Shown here: piece by piece, positions 7,142-14,583 of the stretch
Layout of the letters: each line of letters opens with the position of its first letter
How positions within the stretch are numbered: the stretch's first letter is position 1
From: Candidatus Eisenbacteria bacterium
GTDB taxonomy: Bacteria; Eisenbacteria; RBG-16-71-46; JAFGJU01
Direction: 5' to 3'
Length of the DNA stretch: 64,000 bases
Assembly: GCA_026388185.1 (NCBI GenBank)
Contig: JAPLKG010000014.1
Location: 205,281 to 269,280 of the forward strand
Notes under the pieces: generated by a model
Databases searched by the model: none
Told to the model about the DNA's origin: nothing
What the model saw: the letters and a program-made list of their open reading frames with translations, nothing else
Made by a program: the position numbers and the translations under genes

Positions 7142-9013
7142 TTAGCTTTTCTTTGTCGGTCGTCTTCTCAACAGCGCAATCGCGACCACGGCAACGAGCA
7201 CGAGCAGGGCCACGATACCTAATGGCGAAAGCGCCGGCACGCGTACGCCTCCTTGGGGGGCGCCGGGAGTCAGGTCCATGGTGATGTTCTGACCGACCTC
7301 ACTTATGTTCGTGGCGGCGGCAAACCCAGTGCATGCGTAGTTGTCGTAGTAAGAGCTGGAGTTGGGTGTCGAAGCCCCGTCGAAAGTCGTGACTCCGGTT
7401 GCACTCGAGTAGAAATCCTGCCAGCCCCCTCCGCTCGTACCGAGTTCAAGTTGGTAAAGACCGTCCGCCTGTTCCAACGAAATGCCGTACCACTTTTCGC
7501 CATTGTTGGAGTTGGCAGGAAGAGTGGCACAGTCGCAGTTTGTCTGGCCCTGGTAGACGCCTCCACTCACGCATTCAGCCTCGTTTGGACGCCAGAAGGT
7601 TCTGTCGAGAACGTTTTCGTCAATATGATAGATGCACAAACCGTGAGCGTTGGACGCCATCTGTATGAGCCCTTGATCGAATCCAATCTGCTGGCGGTTC
7701 TCGAAGAGCCAGTACTCCTTCCCACTCGAGCCCGGATATACCACCTTGTACATGGCTCCAGTGGGTGTGTTCTCGATCGGAGGGATGGTGATGCCCGTCG
7801 TAGGCGTGGTCACGGTCGTCGGGGTCACAAAGCCCAGGTAGGCCGTTCCCCACGCGCTCGGGTGTGCGGGAGAGTTGCCGGCACAGTATGGATACACGTT
7901 GGGCACCCTATTCCAGCTTCCGCCGGCCATGAGACTCACTCTTCCGGTTCCCCGGGACTCGTACCCGTAGTCGTATTCGTCGGGAAGACCAAGAATATGT
8001 CCAAATTCGTGTGCGTACACGCCCACCGTCGGGAGCATAGGAGTCATGGGATCCCCGGCTTCTCCGACCGTGTCGCCTCCCGCCTCAGGTTCCATTGAAT
8101 AGTCCACGATTTGAACGCCGTCCACGTACATGGTCACAGTATCGGGGAGGCTCCAGGCGTGCGACCAGATCAGCGTGGGGCCACCGCTCCACTCCGCGCC
8201 GGAACCGGCATGCACTATGAATAGATTTCGAACCACGCCGCCAACGGCATACTGGGAGAAATCGACATAAGGGTCGGCGGCCGTGACCGCATCCATGGCA
8301 AGGCGCTGGGCGTTTCTGGGATAAGGGCCGAAGCCGTTGTCGTGAACTCCGTCAGGCGCGCAGTAGTAAGTGTAGTTGTTCGGAGCCGTAACCCAGCCCA
8401 CAGTGCTCGGCAAGTCGACTGTCACGATGTCAACGGTTCCATAAGAGACCGTGCTGTAAAACCTCTTGAGCGTACGGACGGTGGTCGTATCGGTCCCACC
8501 CCGAAGGTAGGCATCGCCGAAGAGCATGCTGTCCCAGACCGTCGGCCTGAATCTTGTTGCGGGTCCGCCTGGAGGGGTGTCTGGGAATTGGACCAGGATA
8601 ACTATCGCCTTTACAGTCTGGGTAGTTGGAGAAAGCGGCTCGCGCGAGATCCTGTTAATCCTCACACCAGGCTTTTCTGTGAATCGTGCCTCCGTCATGG
8701 AGAACGGCACTTTCTTGCCGGCGTTCTTGTACTGCTGAACCACCTCTGGGTTGAGGGGCATCAGCGTAGGAACGAGCTGTATGTTTACAGCTGCGAGAGA
8801 GGCGCGCGTGGCCTGCGCAGGCTCTGTCGCCGCGAGTTGGGGCTGCGTGGTCTGCGGGCGCTCCGCCCGGGCGACGTCTGATAGGGCCGCTTGCCACACC
8901 TCGGTGCCTCGGGACGATAGCCCGTCGCCGGAGAAGCCAGTGAGCGGCGCACACAACATCGCAAGGCCTAGTATCAGTAAACAAGATAGGCCTACCGAAA
9001 GGCGGGATAACAT
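7142..9013 (-). CDS. Secreted M6-family metalloprotease with IPTL/PEP-CTERM-like C-terminal anchor
   Basis: The 623-residue protein starts at an ATG behind AAGGAGG (spacing 6) and has a signal peptide (about residues 4-27). The zinc site VGVYAHEFGHILGLPDEYD lies near residue 335, as in immune-inhibitor-A-type M6 peptidases. It ends with VPALSPLGIVALLVLVAVVA followed by LLRRRPTKKS: a short PxLS motif, one membrane segment and a basic tail. That tripartite end resembles IPTL-CTERM/PEP-CTERM sorting signals cut by exosortase-like enzymes. It probably acts outside the inner membrane. An upstream ATG at 9088 is in frame but lacks a ribosome site and would bury the signal peptide. Confidence 0.88.
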   Translation of the reverse strand: MLSRLSVGLSCLLILGLAMLCAPLTGFSGDGLSSRGTEVWQAALSDVARAERPQTTQPQLAATEPAQATRASLAAVNIQLVPTLMPLNPEVVQQYKNAGKKVPFSMTEARFTEKPGVRINRISREPLSPTTQTVKAIVILVQFPDTPPGGPATRFRPTVWDSMLFGDAYLRGGTDTTTVRTLKRFYSTVSYGTVDIVTVDLPSTVGWVTAPNNYTYYCAPDGVHDNGFGPYPRNAQRLAMDAVTAADPYVDFSQYAVGGVVRNLFIVHAGSGAEWSGGPTLIWSHAWSLPDTVTMYVDGVQIVDYSMEPEAGGDTVGEAGDPMTPMLPTVGVYAHEFGHILGLPDEYDYGYESRGTGRVSLMAGGSWNRVPNVYPYCAGNSPAHPSAWGTAYLGFVTPTTVTTPTTGITIPPIENTPTGAMYKVVYPGSSGKEYWLFENRQQIGFDQGLIQMASNAHGLCIYHIDENVLDRTFWRPNEAECVSGGVYQGQTNCDCATLPANSNNGEKWYGISLEQADGLYQLELGTSGGGWQDFYSSATGVTTFDGASTPNSSSYYDNYACTGFAAATNISEVGQNITMDLTPGAPQGGVRVPALSPLGIVALLVLVAVVAIALLRRRPTKKS

Positions 9014-9418
9014 CACCGACCTCCTTCGTTTCAGGTTGAGGGGACGAAACCATGTCCGGTTGCACGGATGGTCCGAGATGTGCAACAAGAGCAGTAAGGT
9101 ACGACAATATCATATAGATTATCTCACAAAAAACTGCGTAACTCAAGGGAAATCGGCCCAGGCATGTAGTTCTGTGCGTATCCAGGTCGTTCTGTGATGT
9201 TGACATCCATTCTGCAGAGAGTTATCCTGGTTCTAGTGGAAGCTGGCTTCGGCTCACGAGGTACGGATCAACTGCTGATAGCTGACAACGCCCAAGTTAG
9301 CCTATTCATCGCGGAGTGCGCGGTACGCGGCACGTTGCCTCGAGATTGCCGAGATCGCTCGAATGCGTTCGCTTTTCTTGGTGAGTGGGCGTGCAGATTG
9401 CTGGGAGATATCACGGCC
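9014..9418. other. Intergenic region between divergent genes
   Basis: The part near 9100-9135 is AT-rich and probably holds the leftward promoter of the M6 protease gene (TATGAT on the minus strand), but no convincing -35 is present. The frame of the next gene is open back to 9194, yet its translation upstream of 9419 looks non-coding. Confidence 0.4.
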
Positions 9419-9826
9419 GTGGCAAGAATCGTGGTGTTCGTAAGTCTGATTATCGCGGTCGTACTCTGCCTGGGACCTTGCTCTTGCGTGTTCGTTGTGG
9501 CAGAGCCGAGGCAGGTTGACGGCCCCGCCAAGCGTATCTGGACGGCCAATACAGTCAAAGCGCATCTGTACGACGGTTCCGTGGTTGTGTTTCCGCACGG
9601 TGCGCAAACCAGAGGAAACACCCTCAGGGGGGACGGTATCCGGTACGACCTGTTGAGACAGAACTCGTGGCAGGTGAGGGGGGTAGAGCGAGACAGCGTT
9701 GCCCTCGTGGAGTCTTACGTGGGGAGAACGCTTCCGATTCCAACCATCTTGAGTCTGATGGGTCTGGCTGGCTCTTGTTTGATTGCGTTTGCGCTCATGA
9801 TGGCCTCCGTGGATACCAAGAGGTGA
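9419..9826 (+). CDS. Small membrane-anchored or lipoprotein-like protein, function unknown
   Basis: I prefer the GTG at 9419 (GGGAGAT about 9 nt upstream). The product then begins with a signal-like hydrophobic stretch MARIVVFVSLIIAVVLCLG ending in Cys-containing PCSC. The mature part holds KAHLYDGSVVVFPHGAQTRG and RGVERDSVALVESYVG, a short beta-rich pattern. A second hydrophobic segment (TILSLMGLAGSCLIAFALMM) lies at the C-terminus. The next gene, 9 nt downstream, has the same plan (Cys-terminated leader, small beta domain about how a value is set and read, then membrane segments), so the two may be diverged relatives or partners. No known family was recognised. Confidence 0.45.
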   Translation: MARIVVFVSLIIAVVLCLGPCSCVFVVAEPRQVDGPAKRIWTANTVKAHLYDGSVVVFPHGAQTRGNTLRGDGIRYDLLRQNSWQVRGVERDSVALVESYVGRTLPIPTILSLMGLAGSCLIAFALMMASVDTKR

Positions 9827-9835
9827 AAGCAACAT

Positions 9836-10429
9836 ATGAACGCGTTCCCTACCCGCAACCCCAACAATGACAGGCGAGTTGGAACTGTTTTCATGGCGGC
9901 GTTTATCTGCCTCCTGTCCTGTTCGTGCGCCAGCGAAGTCGACGTCCTGAAGCCGACCGGCGAGCAAACGACGATCACGCTTTCTGACTCAACCCAGCAT
10001 GACGTCGAGCTCTTGGCAGTTTCAGACTCGGCGCTCTACGTTGTTGAGGGAGAAACAATCGGCCTCGCGCGCCTCTCCGACATCCGTAGAGTCTACGTGC
10101 AGGGCTACCTTATTCCCAGGAGCGATAGGGCGCTGGGGGCGATTCCCATAGTGTTGTTCCAGGGGGTGGTGGCGTGCCTTGCCTTTGCTGAGGAGATCGA
10201 AGGGTTGGGGATCGGTATAATGGCGACAGTACCCATTATCCTCACCTTGACCGCCTTTGCCACGGGAGCAGGCGAGCCGGACGTGAGTTTCTCATCTCCG
10301 TTCGATGAAAGCCGATTGCGGAAACTGAGGCTCTACTCGAGATATCCACAGGGACTGACTGACGGCCAGTGGGCCGGCTTACTGGCATTCCATCACCAGA
10401 CGACGTTCGCCCCGTTGGTGCCGAGATAG
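9836..10429 (+). CDS. Putative lipoprotein, function unknown
   Basis: The 197-residue protein has a leader with lipobox-like LLSCSCAS (residues 27-34), suggesting lipid attachment. The following segment TTITLSDSTQHDVELLAVSD and LARLSDIRRVYVQGY resembles small beta domains of unknown lipoproteins in uncultivated FCB-type genomes. One or two hydrophobic segments (about 100-145) follow. It is 9 nt downstream of a gene of similar layout. No catalytic motif is visible. A short palindrome CTTTCGC/GCGAAAG at about 10529-10543 follows the gene. Confidence 0.55.
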   Translation: MNAFPTRNPNNDRRVGTVFMAAFICLLSCSCASEVDVLKPTGEQTTITLSDSTQHDVELLAVSDSALYVVEGETIGLARLSDIRRVYVQGYLIPRSDRALGAIPIVLFQGVVACLAFAEEIEGLGIGIMATVPIILTLTAFATGAGEPDVSFSSPFDESRLRKLRLYSRYPQGLTDGQWAGLLAFHHQTTFAPLVPR

Positions 10430-10557
10430 AGATTTCACGCTTGGCCGCCGGGCTTCCCGCCTGTTTCTTTGGGTGGACGCCAGACGGGCTCGCTCCGCTT
10501 CGGTCCGCCGGCCTTCCACCATGAGTCTTTCGCTGCGAAAGCTCACAATAGAAGTGC

Positions 10558-10586
10558 TTGACAGAAATTTCCGCTTCGGTTATCGT
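10558..10586 (+). promoter_or_regulatory. Promoter of the candidate structured RNA
   Basis: A consensus TTGACA (10558-10563) and TATCGT (10581-10586) are separated by exactly 17 nt, placing the transcript start near 10593, just before the first arm of the structured region. Confidence 0.65.
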
Positions 10587-10592
10587 TGTCAT

Positions 10593-10796
10593 GTTCTAAT
10601 CTAAAAGGAGTACACGATGGCCATTGTCAACATAGGGAGTTGCCTGTAGGCCAGACCTAAGGAAGTCTGGCTTGCGGCCGACTTAGGCGCGGTATTCAGC
10701 GTCCGAATGGCTCGTGGTGTACTTCTTCAAGAATGTTCTTTCTTCTTAAGAAAACCGATCGAAAGTCCACCAGAGCCATTCGGGTGGGCTTTTTTG
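10593..10796 (+). ncRNA. Candidate structured non-coding RNA or riboswitch-like leader
   Basis: A ~200-nt unit has a promoter at its start and an intrinsic terminator at its end, with no reading frame. Long-range pairing closes a domain: 10605-10615 with 10717-10727 (11 pairs, one G-U), then 10619-10625 with 10706-10712 (7 pairs). Inside is a hairpin 10649-10656/10665-10672 with an 8-nt loop. The terminator is at 10765-10795. The ABC exporter gene starts 130 nt beyond the terminator, so this is either a free small RNA or a regulatory leader. I could not match it to 6S, SRP, tmRNA, RNase P or a known riboswitch consensus. The 495-nt gap 10430-10924 contains nothing else that looks coding. Confidence 0.5.
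10765..10795 (+). terminator. Intrinsic terminator
   Basis: GTCCACC (10765-10771) pairs with GGTGGGC (10783-10789), followed by TTTTTT (10790-10795). This is the clearest U-tract terminator in the window. Confidence 0.75.
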
Positions 10797-10852
10797 TTGC
10801 CGTCGGGCCGATTCCGGGATTGATTGCGGAATCAAGCGGCCGGGCAACAAAA
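10792..10852. repeat. Large imperfect inverted repeat before the ABC exporter
   Basis: TTTTGTTGCC (10792-10801) pairs with GGCAACAAAA (10843-10852). Nested inside are GGCC (10806-10809)/GGCC (10838-10841) and GATTCCG (10810-10816)/CGGAATC (10827-10833). The result is a cruciform-sized stem directly after the terminator. Confidence 0.6.
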
Positions 10853-10924
10853 GCCTCGCGAGCGCGTAATGATTGGCAGCCGGTAGTCTAGCTTCTGCGC
10901 CTAGCGCGTCTGGTTTGGGTTGAT

Positions 10925-12733
10925 ATGGATCCGGTTTACTACGAAGAAGAAACAACTGTACGCACGCCGACGAGGATTCTCGCACGGCGAATGCTCGGGC
11001 TCCTCAAGGGGCACGGGGTCGAGCTCGCAGTGTGCCTCGTTCTTCTTTTCGCGGCGTCGAGCGTCTCGCTTGTCGGGCCGATTCTGGTGAAGCGAGCCAT
11101 CGACGTTGACATAGCCGAGAGGAACTTCAGGGGACTTGTGCTCACCGTCTTACTCTTTGTTGCCGCGCAGCTTGCGTTTCTCTTGCTGAGCTATGTGCAG
11201 CGCGTGAGACTGGAAACGGTCGGGCAGGCCATCATTTCCTCCCTGAGAGAGCGACTCTTTGCGCGCGTCACGGGTATGTCACTGTCGTTCTTCGACAAGA
11301 ATCCGGTGGGAAGGCTCATTTCGCGGGTCGAGAGCGACACCGAAGCCATGAGAATGCTCTTCACGTCTGCGGTTGTGACATTTCTCGGCGACATAATCAT
11401 GTTCCTCGGAATGCTTGCGGTCATGGCCTATGTGAATCTCAAGCTCACGCTTGTAACTTCGCTGGTTCTTCCGCCGATACTGACGGCGGCCTGGATTTTC
11501 TCGAAGAAGACCACGCCGCTTTTTCTCACCGTAAGAAAGAGAATGGCCGACATTACCGCTTTTCTCACCGAGCATCTTCAGGGTTCGGCGATAGTGCAGA
11601 TCTTCGGTCGGGAAAAGCAGACGACCGAGGCGATGAGAGACGCGAACCAGCGCAAATACGAGACCGCGCTGAAGGTTGAGCTGATCGTCGTGGCCTTCTT
11701 CAACACACTCTTCCTTACCGAGACCATCGGGGTCACGCTCATTCTCTGGCAGGGAGGGAAGTGGGCTCTCAGTGGTGCCGTGACGATCGGTACGCTCATG
11801 ATGTTCATGGGATACGTGCGAAGATTCTTTGAGCCGCTACACAGGCTTTCCGAAGAGCTCAGCACGTTTCAGCGAGCATTCTCAGGAGCGCAACGCGTGT
11901 TCGAGCTTCTCGACACGCAGCCGGAGATCACCGATAAGCCGGTCACTCGGGAATGGAAGCGGTTCGAGAAAGGCATAGATTTCGAGAACGTATGGTTCAG
12001 CTACGACAACCACGACTGGGTCTTGCGTGACATTACCTTCAGTCTGTCGAAGGGGCAGAGATGGGCCCTCGTCGGTGCGACGGGCGGCGGGAAAACGTCA
12101 ATCATAAGCCTGCTACTGAGGTTCTATCAGCCGCAGCGAGGAAGGATCCTCGTTGACGGAATTGATATCAAGGAGCTCTCGCAGGAAGAGCTTCGTGCCA
12201 AGATCGGGCTTGTGCTTCAGGACATTTTCCTCTTCCCGGGCAACGTGTTGGAGAATCTCCGAATGGGCGAGAAAACGTTGAGTCCGGACCGGGTCATGGA
12301 GGCAGCGAGGCGCATCCGCGTCGATGACGTAGTGAACAGACTCCCGCGGGGACTCGAGACCGAGCTTGCCGAGCGAGGGGACAATCTCTCTACCGGGGAG
12401 CGACAGTTGCTTTCTTTCCTGAGAGCGCTTCTCGTGGACCCGGACATTCTCGTGCTCGATGAAGCCACGTCGAGCGTCGATCCCCACACCGAGCGACTGT
12501 TGCGGCGCGCGATGAAGGAGTTGATGGCCGGTCGGACGTCTTTAGTAATCGCCCACAGGCTCTCGACGGTGATGGACTCGGACCACATCCTGGTGATCCA
12601 TGACGGGGAAGTCGTTGAGAGAGGGAATCACAGTGCGTTGATGGCTCAGAAGGGTTACTACAGAAAGCTCTTCAGGCTTCAATGCCTCGCGACGCGGGAG
12701 AGGGAAACTCCGGCCGCGGGGGGAGACGAGTAA
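10925..12733 (+). CDS. ABC exporter half-transporter, subunit A (canonical Walker B, degenerate signature)
   Basis: The 602-residue protein has six membrane helices (about 30-310, type IV exporter fold) and one nucleotide-binding domain. Walker A is GATGGGKTS. The signature is LSTGERQ instead of LSGGQ. Walker B ends LVLDEATSSVD with the catalytic Glu, and the H-loop is IAHRLST. The next gene, 2 nt after the stop, encodes the partner with the complementary defect, so the two form a heterodimeric exporter of the TM287/288 or BmrCD type. Substrate (drug, lipid or peptide) is unknown. The Shine-Dalgarno is weak. Expression may depend on the structured leader at 10593-10796. Confidence 0.9.
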   Translation: MDPVYYEEETTVRTPTRILARRMLGLLKGHGVELAVCLVLLFAASSVSLVGPILVKRAIDVDIAERNFRGLVLTVLLFVAAQLAFLLLSYVQRVRLETVGQAIISSLRERLFARVTGMSLSFFDKNPVGRLISRVESDTEAMRMLFTSAVVTFLGDIIMFLGMLAVMAYVNLKLTLVTSLVLPPILTAAWIFSKKTTPLFLTVRKRMADITAFLTEHLQGSAIVQIFGREKQTTEAMRDANQRKYETALKVELIVVAFFNTLFLTETIGVTLILWQGGKWALSGAVTIGTLMMFMGYVRRFFEPLHRLSEELSTFQRAFSGAQRVFELLDTQPEITDKPVTREWKRFEKGIDFENVWFSYDNHDWVLRDITFSLSKGQRWALVGATGGGKTSIISLLLRFYQPQRGRILVDGIDIKELSQEELRAKIGLVLQDIFLFPGNVLENLRMGEKTLSPDRVMEAARRIRVDDVVNRLPRGLETELAERGDNLSTGERQLLSFLRALLVDPDILVLDEATSSVDPHTERLLRRAMKELMAGRTSLVIAHRLSTVMDSDHILVIHDGEVVERGNHSALMAQKGYYRKLFRLQCLATRERETPAAGGDE

Positions 12734-12735
12734 TC

Positions 12736-14583
12736 ATGAGAAGTGTGAGATGGCTCTTTGAAGTCTGGCGGACAAGAAAGCGCCTTGCCACGTTTCTCGT
12801 GGTGTTTTCGATTCTCAATGCACTTTTGGCTGTGGCCTACCCTCTGTTCGTGCGCGCAGTGATCGACGCGATAAAGAACAAGGCCGGCGTTGAGGTCATC
12901 TCCAGAAACGTGCTCATTCTTCTCGCGCTGGGGATTGGGCAATTCCTTGTCTACGCCTCCATGCAGGGCACGCGGGCGTGGACCAACCTTGTGCTTGAAA
13001 GAGACTTCAGGCAGAGGATGTTCGGGCATCTCATTCGTCTAGGCCGAAGTTTCTTCCAGAGATTCAGAATGGGTGACATCGTGACGCGCCTCACGGACGA
13101 CTTGAGCACGGAGATGAAACTGTCCTGGTTCGCCTGCTCAGGCATTTTCAGGACGATCGAGGCGCTCTGTATGATCGTGTTCGGCCTCGCGGCGATGATC
13201 CGACTGAACCCGACGCTCACGCTCTTTGCGGTGGGGCCGCTGCCGATACTCATAATCATCTTCATGTTGACTTCTGCCGCGGTCGAGGCTCGGTACGAAC
13301 GGCTCCAGAAGAGAATCTCGGACGTGAATGCTCACATGGAGTCCTGTTTTTCCGGCATAAGAGTCGTCAAGGCTTACAGGCGCGAGCGGGCCCAGGAAGA
13401 GGGGTTCGGCGAAGTGATAGGTCGTCGAAGGCGGGCGGAAATAGACGCCGTCAGGGTGGGTACGATTGTCCAGGCCATGTACGGTCACATCTGGCAGTTT
13501 GGAGTGGTCATCGTGTTGCTGGTCGGCGGAAAGATGGTAATGGAAGGCAAGCTCACGATCGGAACGCTCGCGGCTTTCGACGCCTACGTGATGCTCTTGG
13601 TGTTCCCGATGTATGACATCGGCACGTTCTTCGTGCGTGGGAAGAGCGCCGCCGTGTCCATCCGCAGGCTCGCAGACATGGAAGACGTACAGCCGGAGAT
13701 CACGGAGATCGATCATCCGAAGGTGTTGCCGTGGGCCGAGACGACTCACGGTTGGCAGGAGAGTGGGGGCGGCGCGCACAGAACGCAAGGTCGGGCCGGA
13801 GGCGGAAGCCCCCGCGCTACTCTGCCGGGCACACTCAGATTCGACAACGTCTCCCTTTCCTTCACGCCGGGAGGAGCGAAGGTCCTCGACGGAGTCAGCT
13901 TCGAAGTCAAACCCGGCGAAATTGTTGCTCTTGTCGGGCGAGTTGCCTCCGGGAAGTCGAGCGTGGTGAATCTGATCCCGCGACTTGTTGACCCGACGGA
14001 GGGACGGATCCTTCTGGACGGTGTGCCGATAAGAGATCTGGGCCTTGAAGATCTCAGAGGGATAATCGGCTACGTCCCGCAGGAGCCGTTACTGTTCTCG
14101 GACACCGTCGAAAACAACATTAGATTTCACAGAGACTGGATTGGTCGGGAAGACGTCGCGCGGGCCGCAGAGGTGTCCAGGCTCGTGGAGGAGGTCGGGG
14201 CGTTTTCCGACGGCTTCCAAACAAAGATAGGCCAGCGCGGGGTCACCATCTCCGGCGGGCAAAAACAGAGGGTCGCACTCGCGCGAGCACTCGCGGGAAG
14301 ACCCAAGATATTGATACTCGACGACTGCACGGCAAGCCTTGACGCCCAGACCGAGACGGCGCTCTGGGAAGGACTTCAGAAGGTGTTCCCGCAGTGCGCC
14401 ACAATAGTGATCTCACACAGGGCGGCGACGCTGGAGCGAGCCGATCTCATACTGGTCTTTGAGAGAGGTAAGATAGTAGAGAGAGGGGCGCACCACGAGC
14501 TCGTGTCGAAAAAGGGCGTCTATCACACGCTCTACGAACTCGGAAAACTTCGGGACGAAGTGGGAACAGGTTGGGAGGAGTGA
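12736..14583 (+). CDS. ABC exporter half-transporter, subunit B (canonical signature, degenerate Walker B)
   Basis: The 615-residue protein has six membrane helices and a C-terminal nucleotide-binding domain. Walker A is GRVASGKSS, the signature ISGGQKQR is normal, but Walker B ends LILDDCTASLD, with Asp in place of the catalytic Glu. A 35-residue Gly/Arg-rich insert (around residues 335-370) separates the membrane and ATPase domains. In the heterodimer, its Walker B would face the degenerate signature of subunit A to form the non-hydrolysing site, as known for TM287/288. I chose the ATG at 12736 (GGGGGAG upstream); an ATG at 12682 lies inside the previous gene. Confidence 0.9.
   Translation: MRSVRWLFEVWRTRKRLATFLVVFSILNALLAVAYPLFVRAVIDAIKNKAGVEVISRNVLILLALGIGQFLVYASMQGTRAWTNLVLERDFRQRMFGHLIRLGRSFFQRFRMGDIVTRLTDDLSTEMKLSWFACSGIFRTIEALCMIVFGLAAMIRLNPTLTLFAVGPLPILIIIFMLTSAAVEARYERLQKRISDVNAHMESCFSGIRVVKAYRRERAQEEGFGEVIGRRRRAEIDAVRVGTIVQAMYGHIWQFGVVIVLLVGGKMVMEGKLTIGTLAAFDAYVMLLVFPMYDIGTFFVRGKSAAVSIRRLADMEDVQPEITEIDHPKVLPWAETTHGWQESGGGAHRTQGRAGGGSPRATLPGTLRFDNVSLSFTPGGAKVLDGVSFEVKPGEIVALVGRVASGKSSVVNLIPRLVDPTEGRILLDGVPIRDLGLEDLRGIIGYVPQEPLLFSDTVENNIRFHRDWIGREDVARAAEVSRLVEEVGAFSDGFQTKIGQRGVTISGGQKQRVALARALAGRPKILILDDCTASLDAQTETALWEGLQKVFPQCATIVISHRAATLERADLILVFERGKIVERGAHHELVSKKGVYHTLYELGKLRDEVGTGWEE

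Follow-up and report, generated by a model that had tools for sequence, protein, structure and literature searches.

A probable ribosome-mediated transcription attenuator upstream of a heterodimeric ABC exporter in Candidatus Eisenbacteria

Which kind of RNA is encoded directly upstream of an ABC exporter gene pair of a Candidatus Eisenbacteria bacterium? The window analyzed here is a stretch of 64,000 nucleotides from a genome of 2.6 Mb (G000). A first-pass annotation had proposed a free sRNA or a terminating riboswitch at this position. Judged by folding models and by analogy with known systems, we consider the element very probably a ribosome-mediated transcription attenuator controlling the heterodimeric ABC exporter. 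The earlier proposal was right in so far as a terminating cis-regulatory RNA precedes the exporter, but both an sRNA and a riboswitch are less likely than an attenuator. The relevant features of the locus are the following:

10558..10586, + strand: sigma-70-like promoter TTGACA-17-TATCGT (-35 TTGACA 10558-10563, -10 TATCGT 10581-10586)
10605..10610, + strand: Shine-Dalgarno (SD) sequence AAGGAG, 6 nt 5' of the ATG (sequence)
10605..10625, + strand: region 1, 5' arm of P1 (anti-antiterminator) with SD, start codon and first codons (fold, pair probability ~0.99)
10617..10649, + strand: leader ORF MAIVNIGSCL*, 10 codons (sequence)
10637..10684, + strand: P2 hairpin inside P1 (fold)
10686..10703, + strand: P3 hairpin inside P1 (fold)
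10703..10727, + strand: region 2, comprising the P1 3' arm (10706-10727) and the antiterminator 5' arm (10703-10713, CCGAAUGGCUC) (fold)
10736..10752, + strand: small hairpin overlapped by TTCTTT (TTNTTT, 10736-10741; motif match only)
10761..10795, + strand: intrinsic terminator, hairpin 10761-10793 plus T6 10790-10795 (terminator probability 1.00 in the free RNA)
10773..10783, + strand: region 3, antiterminator 3' arm GAGCCAUUCGG, mostly within the terminator loop (fold)
10796..10848, + strand: extra stable hairpin of the read-through transcript, -25.9 kcal/mol
10925..12733, + strand: ABC exporter subunit 1, consensus Walker B LVLDEAT (domains, sequence)
12682..14583, + strand: ABC exporter subunit 2, degenerate Walker B LILDDCT, overlapping subunit 1 (domains, sequence)

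The promoter, with a transcription start predicted at about 10593, was the sole + strand match of a promoter scan within 9500-12500. It had been called near-ideal, which is generous since only the -35 hexamer is perfect and the -10 hexamer matches 4/6 positions (10/12 in total). The RNA from 10593 to 10800 folded with -85.4 kcal/mol compared to -58.8 +/- 4.3 kcal/mol for shuffled sequences (z = -6.1), and an equally stable fold was found in 0/200 shuffles. The structure of this RNA is real. The 11-bp long-range stem described earlier (10605-10615/10717-10727) is present and includes one G.U pair, the single internal hairpin reported turned out to be two (P2 and P3), and the U-tract terminator was found as well. 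Additionally, a second long-range complement, an exact one of 11 bp, connects 10703-10713 with 10773-10783.

A covariance-model search of the window with Rfam 15 gave nothing above the gathering cut-off, in agreement with the earlier remark that the RNA matches no known class. The best sub-threshold models were the Phe leader (E 1.3, score 19.3 with a gathering threshold of 55) and the Trp leader (E 5.9, 14.2 with a threshold of 41), both insignificant. These families follow the same general attenuator logic, but the window scores far under their thresholds. Scans of the region for tRNA and tmRNA found nothing. The RNA of the window is structured and unlisted in Rfam, yet its predicted mode of action is that of an established class of regulators.

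The unit had been described as being without a frame, which overlooked a ten-codon ORF with a strong SD. The sequence 10605-10649 reads AAGGAGTACACG followed by ATG GCC ATT GTC AAC ATA GGG AGT TGC CTG TAG. A comparable combination of SD and AUG occurred by chance in 48/4000 dinucleotide shuffles of the region (1.2%). In the 11-bp long-range stem, the 5' arm consists of the SD and the start codon of this ORF, for which translation is predicted. The short ORF with its ribosome binding site lies ahead of the intrinsic terminator, and the latter is located between the leader ORF and the exporter gene.

Three pairings compete within this RNA: P1 (10605-10625 with 10706-10727), the antiterminator (10703-10713 with 10773-10783, eleven Watson-Crick pairs) and the terminator stem (10761-10771 with 10783-10793), with antiterminator and terminator being mutually exclusive. 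The full RNA formed P1 and the terminator with a probability of ~1.0 and the antiterminator with 0. Removal of the first 24 nt, up to the start codon, reversed this outcome (antiterminator ~1.0, terminator 0). A ribosome footprint of 31 nt was then slid along the leader, equilibrium folding being assumed. With codons 1-5 in the P site the antiterminator reached 0.97-0.98 and the terminator was abolished, at codon 6 the antiterminator was at about 0.5, and at codons 7-10 the terminator returned to 0.84-1.0; it also formed with no ribosome on the leader. Among 400 shuffles of 10650-10761 the full switch was found in none, and a change of >0.5 in 3. In silico, the position of the ribosome on the leader thus decides which structure is formed, as in an attenuator.

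These data bear on two other readings as well. A riboswitch would use the three-way junction of P1, P2 and P3 as its aptamer, with a ligand stabilizing P1 so that the terminator forms; the junction is very stable and, as in OFF riboswitches, the antiterminator shares sequence with the P1 3' arm. However, the P1 5' arm is filled by a well-spaced SD and start codon, an arrangement rare by chance as stated above, an OFF switch has the wrong polarity for an exporter, leader ORFs rather than a conserved aptamer were seen at orthologues, and an Rfam match is absent, so that we regard a riboswitch as quite improbable. A free-standing small RNA unrelated to the exporter has even less in its favour and seems to us highly improbable: its own promoter, a length of ~200 nt and a terminator would suit it, and the terminated RNA would accumulate, but an antiterminator competing exactly with the terminator is needless for an sRNA, the scanned region offers no second sigma-70-like + strand promoter before the exporter, and leader ORFs with terminators are found at orthologous exporters. 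We favour a leader-peptide attenuator because SD and start codon form the key stem arm and a ribosome flips the RNA between terminator and antiterminator in silico. It is favoured further because orthologous exporters carry leader ORFs and terminators at this place, with covarying antiterminators.

The leader-peptide attenuator would operate as follows. RNA polymerase would initiate near 10593 and a ribosome would load onto the ten-codon leader ORF. If it finishes fast and leaves, region 1 would pair with region 2 (P1) and region 3 would remain free, whereupon the terminator would form and transcription would stop near 10795. A ribosome held on codons 1-5 would block P1, so that region 2 could pair with region 3 to give the antiterminator; the terminator would be lost and the exporter genes would be transcribed. 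For the cell, these models lead us to infer that the RNA is transcribed and its leader translated, and that transcripts either terminate or read through.

The hairpin 10796-10848 follows directly after the terminator and is present only in the read-through RNA; its stem involves GTTGCC/GGCAAC.

The genes downstream contain ABC_membrane and ABC_tran domains twice, in two overlapping frames, with a consensus (DE) and a degenerate (DD) Walker B motif, respectively. Such a pair is expected for asymmetric heterodimeric exporters, e.g. TM287/288 and BmrCD. Solved structures matching the two window proteins include chains of TM287/288 and of BmrC/BmrD (YheI/YheH), and a second ABC gene was located 3' of the first in 36/37 orthologous loci. 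A heterodimeric ABC exporter hence lies directly 3' of the attenuator, as in the bmrCD-type arrangement.

A DNA search of 99 relatives and of phages and plasmids gave no homologue of the window RNA, the short matches being at chance level; one match among the relatives with E 4.7e-4 spans just 24 nt of low-complexity sequence. The stems and the junction of the window RNA are thus predicted from a single sequence. Both genomes of the same family lack the upstream stretch: in CP070702.1 an N gap is located there, and it is missing from G001, in which a frame of 126 aa close to the end of a contig gives the match. The N gap of CP070702.1, at 2899-2998 of L061, interrupts the exporter orthologue, and the frame immediately upstream is TPR-like and unrelated; a misjoin of this MAG is possible.

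The exporter itself could be traced in other families. The closest exporter match outside the family was found in G343 (49% identity, E 2e-187), which belongs to a different class from the window. Among exporters with about 46-49% identity, a promoter, an SD-led short ORF and a terminator or SD-hairpin were present at L149, L153 and L034, and L032 possibly has a layout of the same type. L149 (G343) carries TTGACA-17-TATACT, an SD, a 31-codon ORF and a GAGCCGGACTCC...GTCCGGCTC-T8 terminator, and L153 (G283) an SD-led 25-codon ORF with a terminator. In L034 (G007), which is of the same class as the window, a promoter is followed by AGGAGG and a 12-codon ORF within a long-range stem. The leader trait is not universal, since the orthologues L033, L150, L151 and L152 showed no clear strong-SD leader, and of the more distant ABC exporters in the scan few (about 5/100) had a short ORF with a strong SD.

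At L034 the exporter SD GGAG sits in a hairpin, and attenuation there may be translational rather than transcriptional. MAIVNIGSCL and MIKKIGSQRPQI of L034 have the tripeptide IGS in common, which we dismissed as a possible arrest motif because it is too short.

The class of G343 was analyzed as a whole. The exporter was present in 96/133 genomes, and the upstream regions were usable for 42 of 70 loci (26 gave no tblastn hit to the protein start and 2 were too short). A TTGA-type promoter, mostly near -300, was found in 40/42 upstream regions and a terminator in 39/42, mostly CCCGCCG...CGGCGGG-T6 near -60. A leader ORF of fixed geometry was present in 28/39 upstream regions, compared to 1.3% of shuffles. 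Most leaders have an RGG-rich end, the codons of which are complementary to the 5' arm of the terminator. The leader ends paired better with their own terminator arm than with those of others (mean score 22.2 versus 19.8 +/- 0.4); this score was reached in 0/5000 permutations, which is not a strict probability since the test ignores sequence relatedness. Matched changes on both sides were found, namely GCGACGGG/CCCGTCGC and CACGGCGGG/CCCGCCGTG beside GCGGCGGG/CCCGCCGC. Such two-sided changes are a direct sign of antiterminator covariation in this class.

Close pairs of these leaders differ at all three codon positions, hence the leader peptide is not strongly conserved; conserved are the frame and the positions of start and stop. 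Equilibrium folding mostly favoured the terminator, and the codon-resolved switch was not reproduced in most leaders of this class. At L155, L169, L177 and L183, an early ribosome favoured antitermination and a late one termination, so that the polarity agrees with that of the window RNA. Ten leaders tested with Rfam 15 gave none above the gathering cut-off, and within a brief search of the literature the leader of G343's class is a candidate for an RNA family and new Rfam motif. A profile of these leaders matched only the terminator end of the window region, insignificantly (E 0.05-0.9). Covariation of the alternative pairings is seen at the orthologous leaders of this other class, and these leaders cannot be aligned with the window RNA.

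Loci L155-L213, located upstream of ABC exporters in G343's class, represent leader-ORF attenuators with a covarying antiterminator and no Rfam match.

Which signal the leader might sense can be approached from its codons. Leader-peptide attenuation by amino-acid supply is used in biosynthetic operons, and with Ile, Val, Ile and Leu among its ten codons the leader could respond to charged tRNA rather than to a drug. We regard this as unlikely, since the controlled genes are exporters, the leader lacks a run of one codon, and the leaders of orthologues share no amino acid pattern beyond the RGG-rich end, which is linked to base pairing.

For the drug-sensing attenuator, the closest parallels are found in Bacillus subtilis. 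In the bmrB-bmrCD system a leader ORF, alternative stem-loops and a terminator likewise precede a heterodimeric multidrug ABC exporter, and induction needs translation of the leader (PMC4191407). That attenuator is proven by experiment, whereas the window attenuator is predicted from sequence and folding. In bmrB the leader ORF runs over 53 codons and includes the terminator (PMC4191407), in contrast to 10 codons and a terminator ~110 nt downstream in the window. The vmlR leader shares with the window a short uORF within an anti-antiterminator stem, a competing antiterminator and an intrinsic terminator, a small hairpin with TTNTTT, which in the window lies between the antiterminator arms, and a further hairpin before the gene (PMC9226507). 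By this analogy TTCTTT at 10736-10741 is a possible RNA polymerase pause element. Several differences exist: vmlR encodes an ABCF ribosome-protection factor and not an ABC exporter, its uORF is MIN with the SD before the stem (PMC9226507) rather than inside it, and the resemblance of the window hairpin 10796-10848 to the further hairpin of vmlR is drawn from position, not from masking of the SD of the gene. In the msrD/mefA attenuators a ribosome stalled on a short leader prevents the terminator as well, but the described site of its action is the terminator itself (PMC10314930), and their leaders, unlike MAIVNIGSCL, belong to the known arrest peptides (MYLIFM; +x+ motif).

Because the layout equals the vmlR scheme and the gene context that of bmrB-bmrCD, the inducer is most likely an antibiotic that acts on translation and is cleared by the exporter, and the removal of translation inhibitors would be a plausible exporter function. 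Linezolid and chloramphenicol stall ribosomes best with alanine in the penultimate position (PMC8987054). As the second leader residue is Ala, it would come to occupy this position when the P site holds codon 3, which would suit stalling of the phenicol/oxazolidinone type; this is offered as a suggestion.

Based on a brief literature search, ribosome-mediated attenuation of drug-resistance genes has been documented mainly in Bacillota and Actinomycetota. The present data add a putative attenuator of compact bistable form in a Candidatus Eisenbacteria genome, and predicted attenuation with base-pair covariation before the exporter pair throughout a class outside that of the window. This suggests that inducible, translation-sensing efflux control also occurs in lineages known mostly from metagenomes. 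A broader proposition, which we regard as evenly poised, is that unlisted translation-sensing attenuators are widespread in uncultured lineages and guard one clade of heterodimeric ABC exporters, class-wide in one class and patchy in that of the window. The architecture being conserved and the peptides not, such leaders would sense the speed of the ribosome rather than act through a particular arrest peptide.

Just upstream of the attenuator two adjacent + strand frames were located at 9194-9826 and 9836-10429, both lacking a Pfam/NCBIfam match; the second has a lipoprotein-like signal. Further upstream, 7142-9088 on the - strand encodes an M6-family metalloprotease domain protein with a C-terminal tail resembling a membrane anchor.
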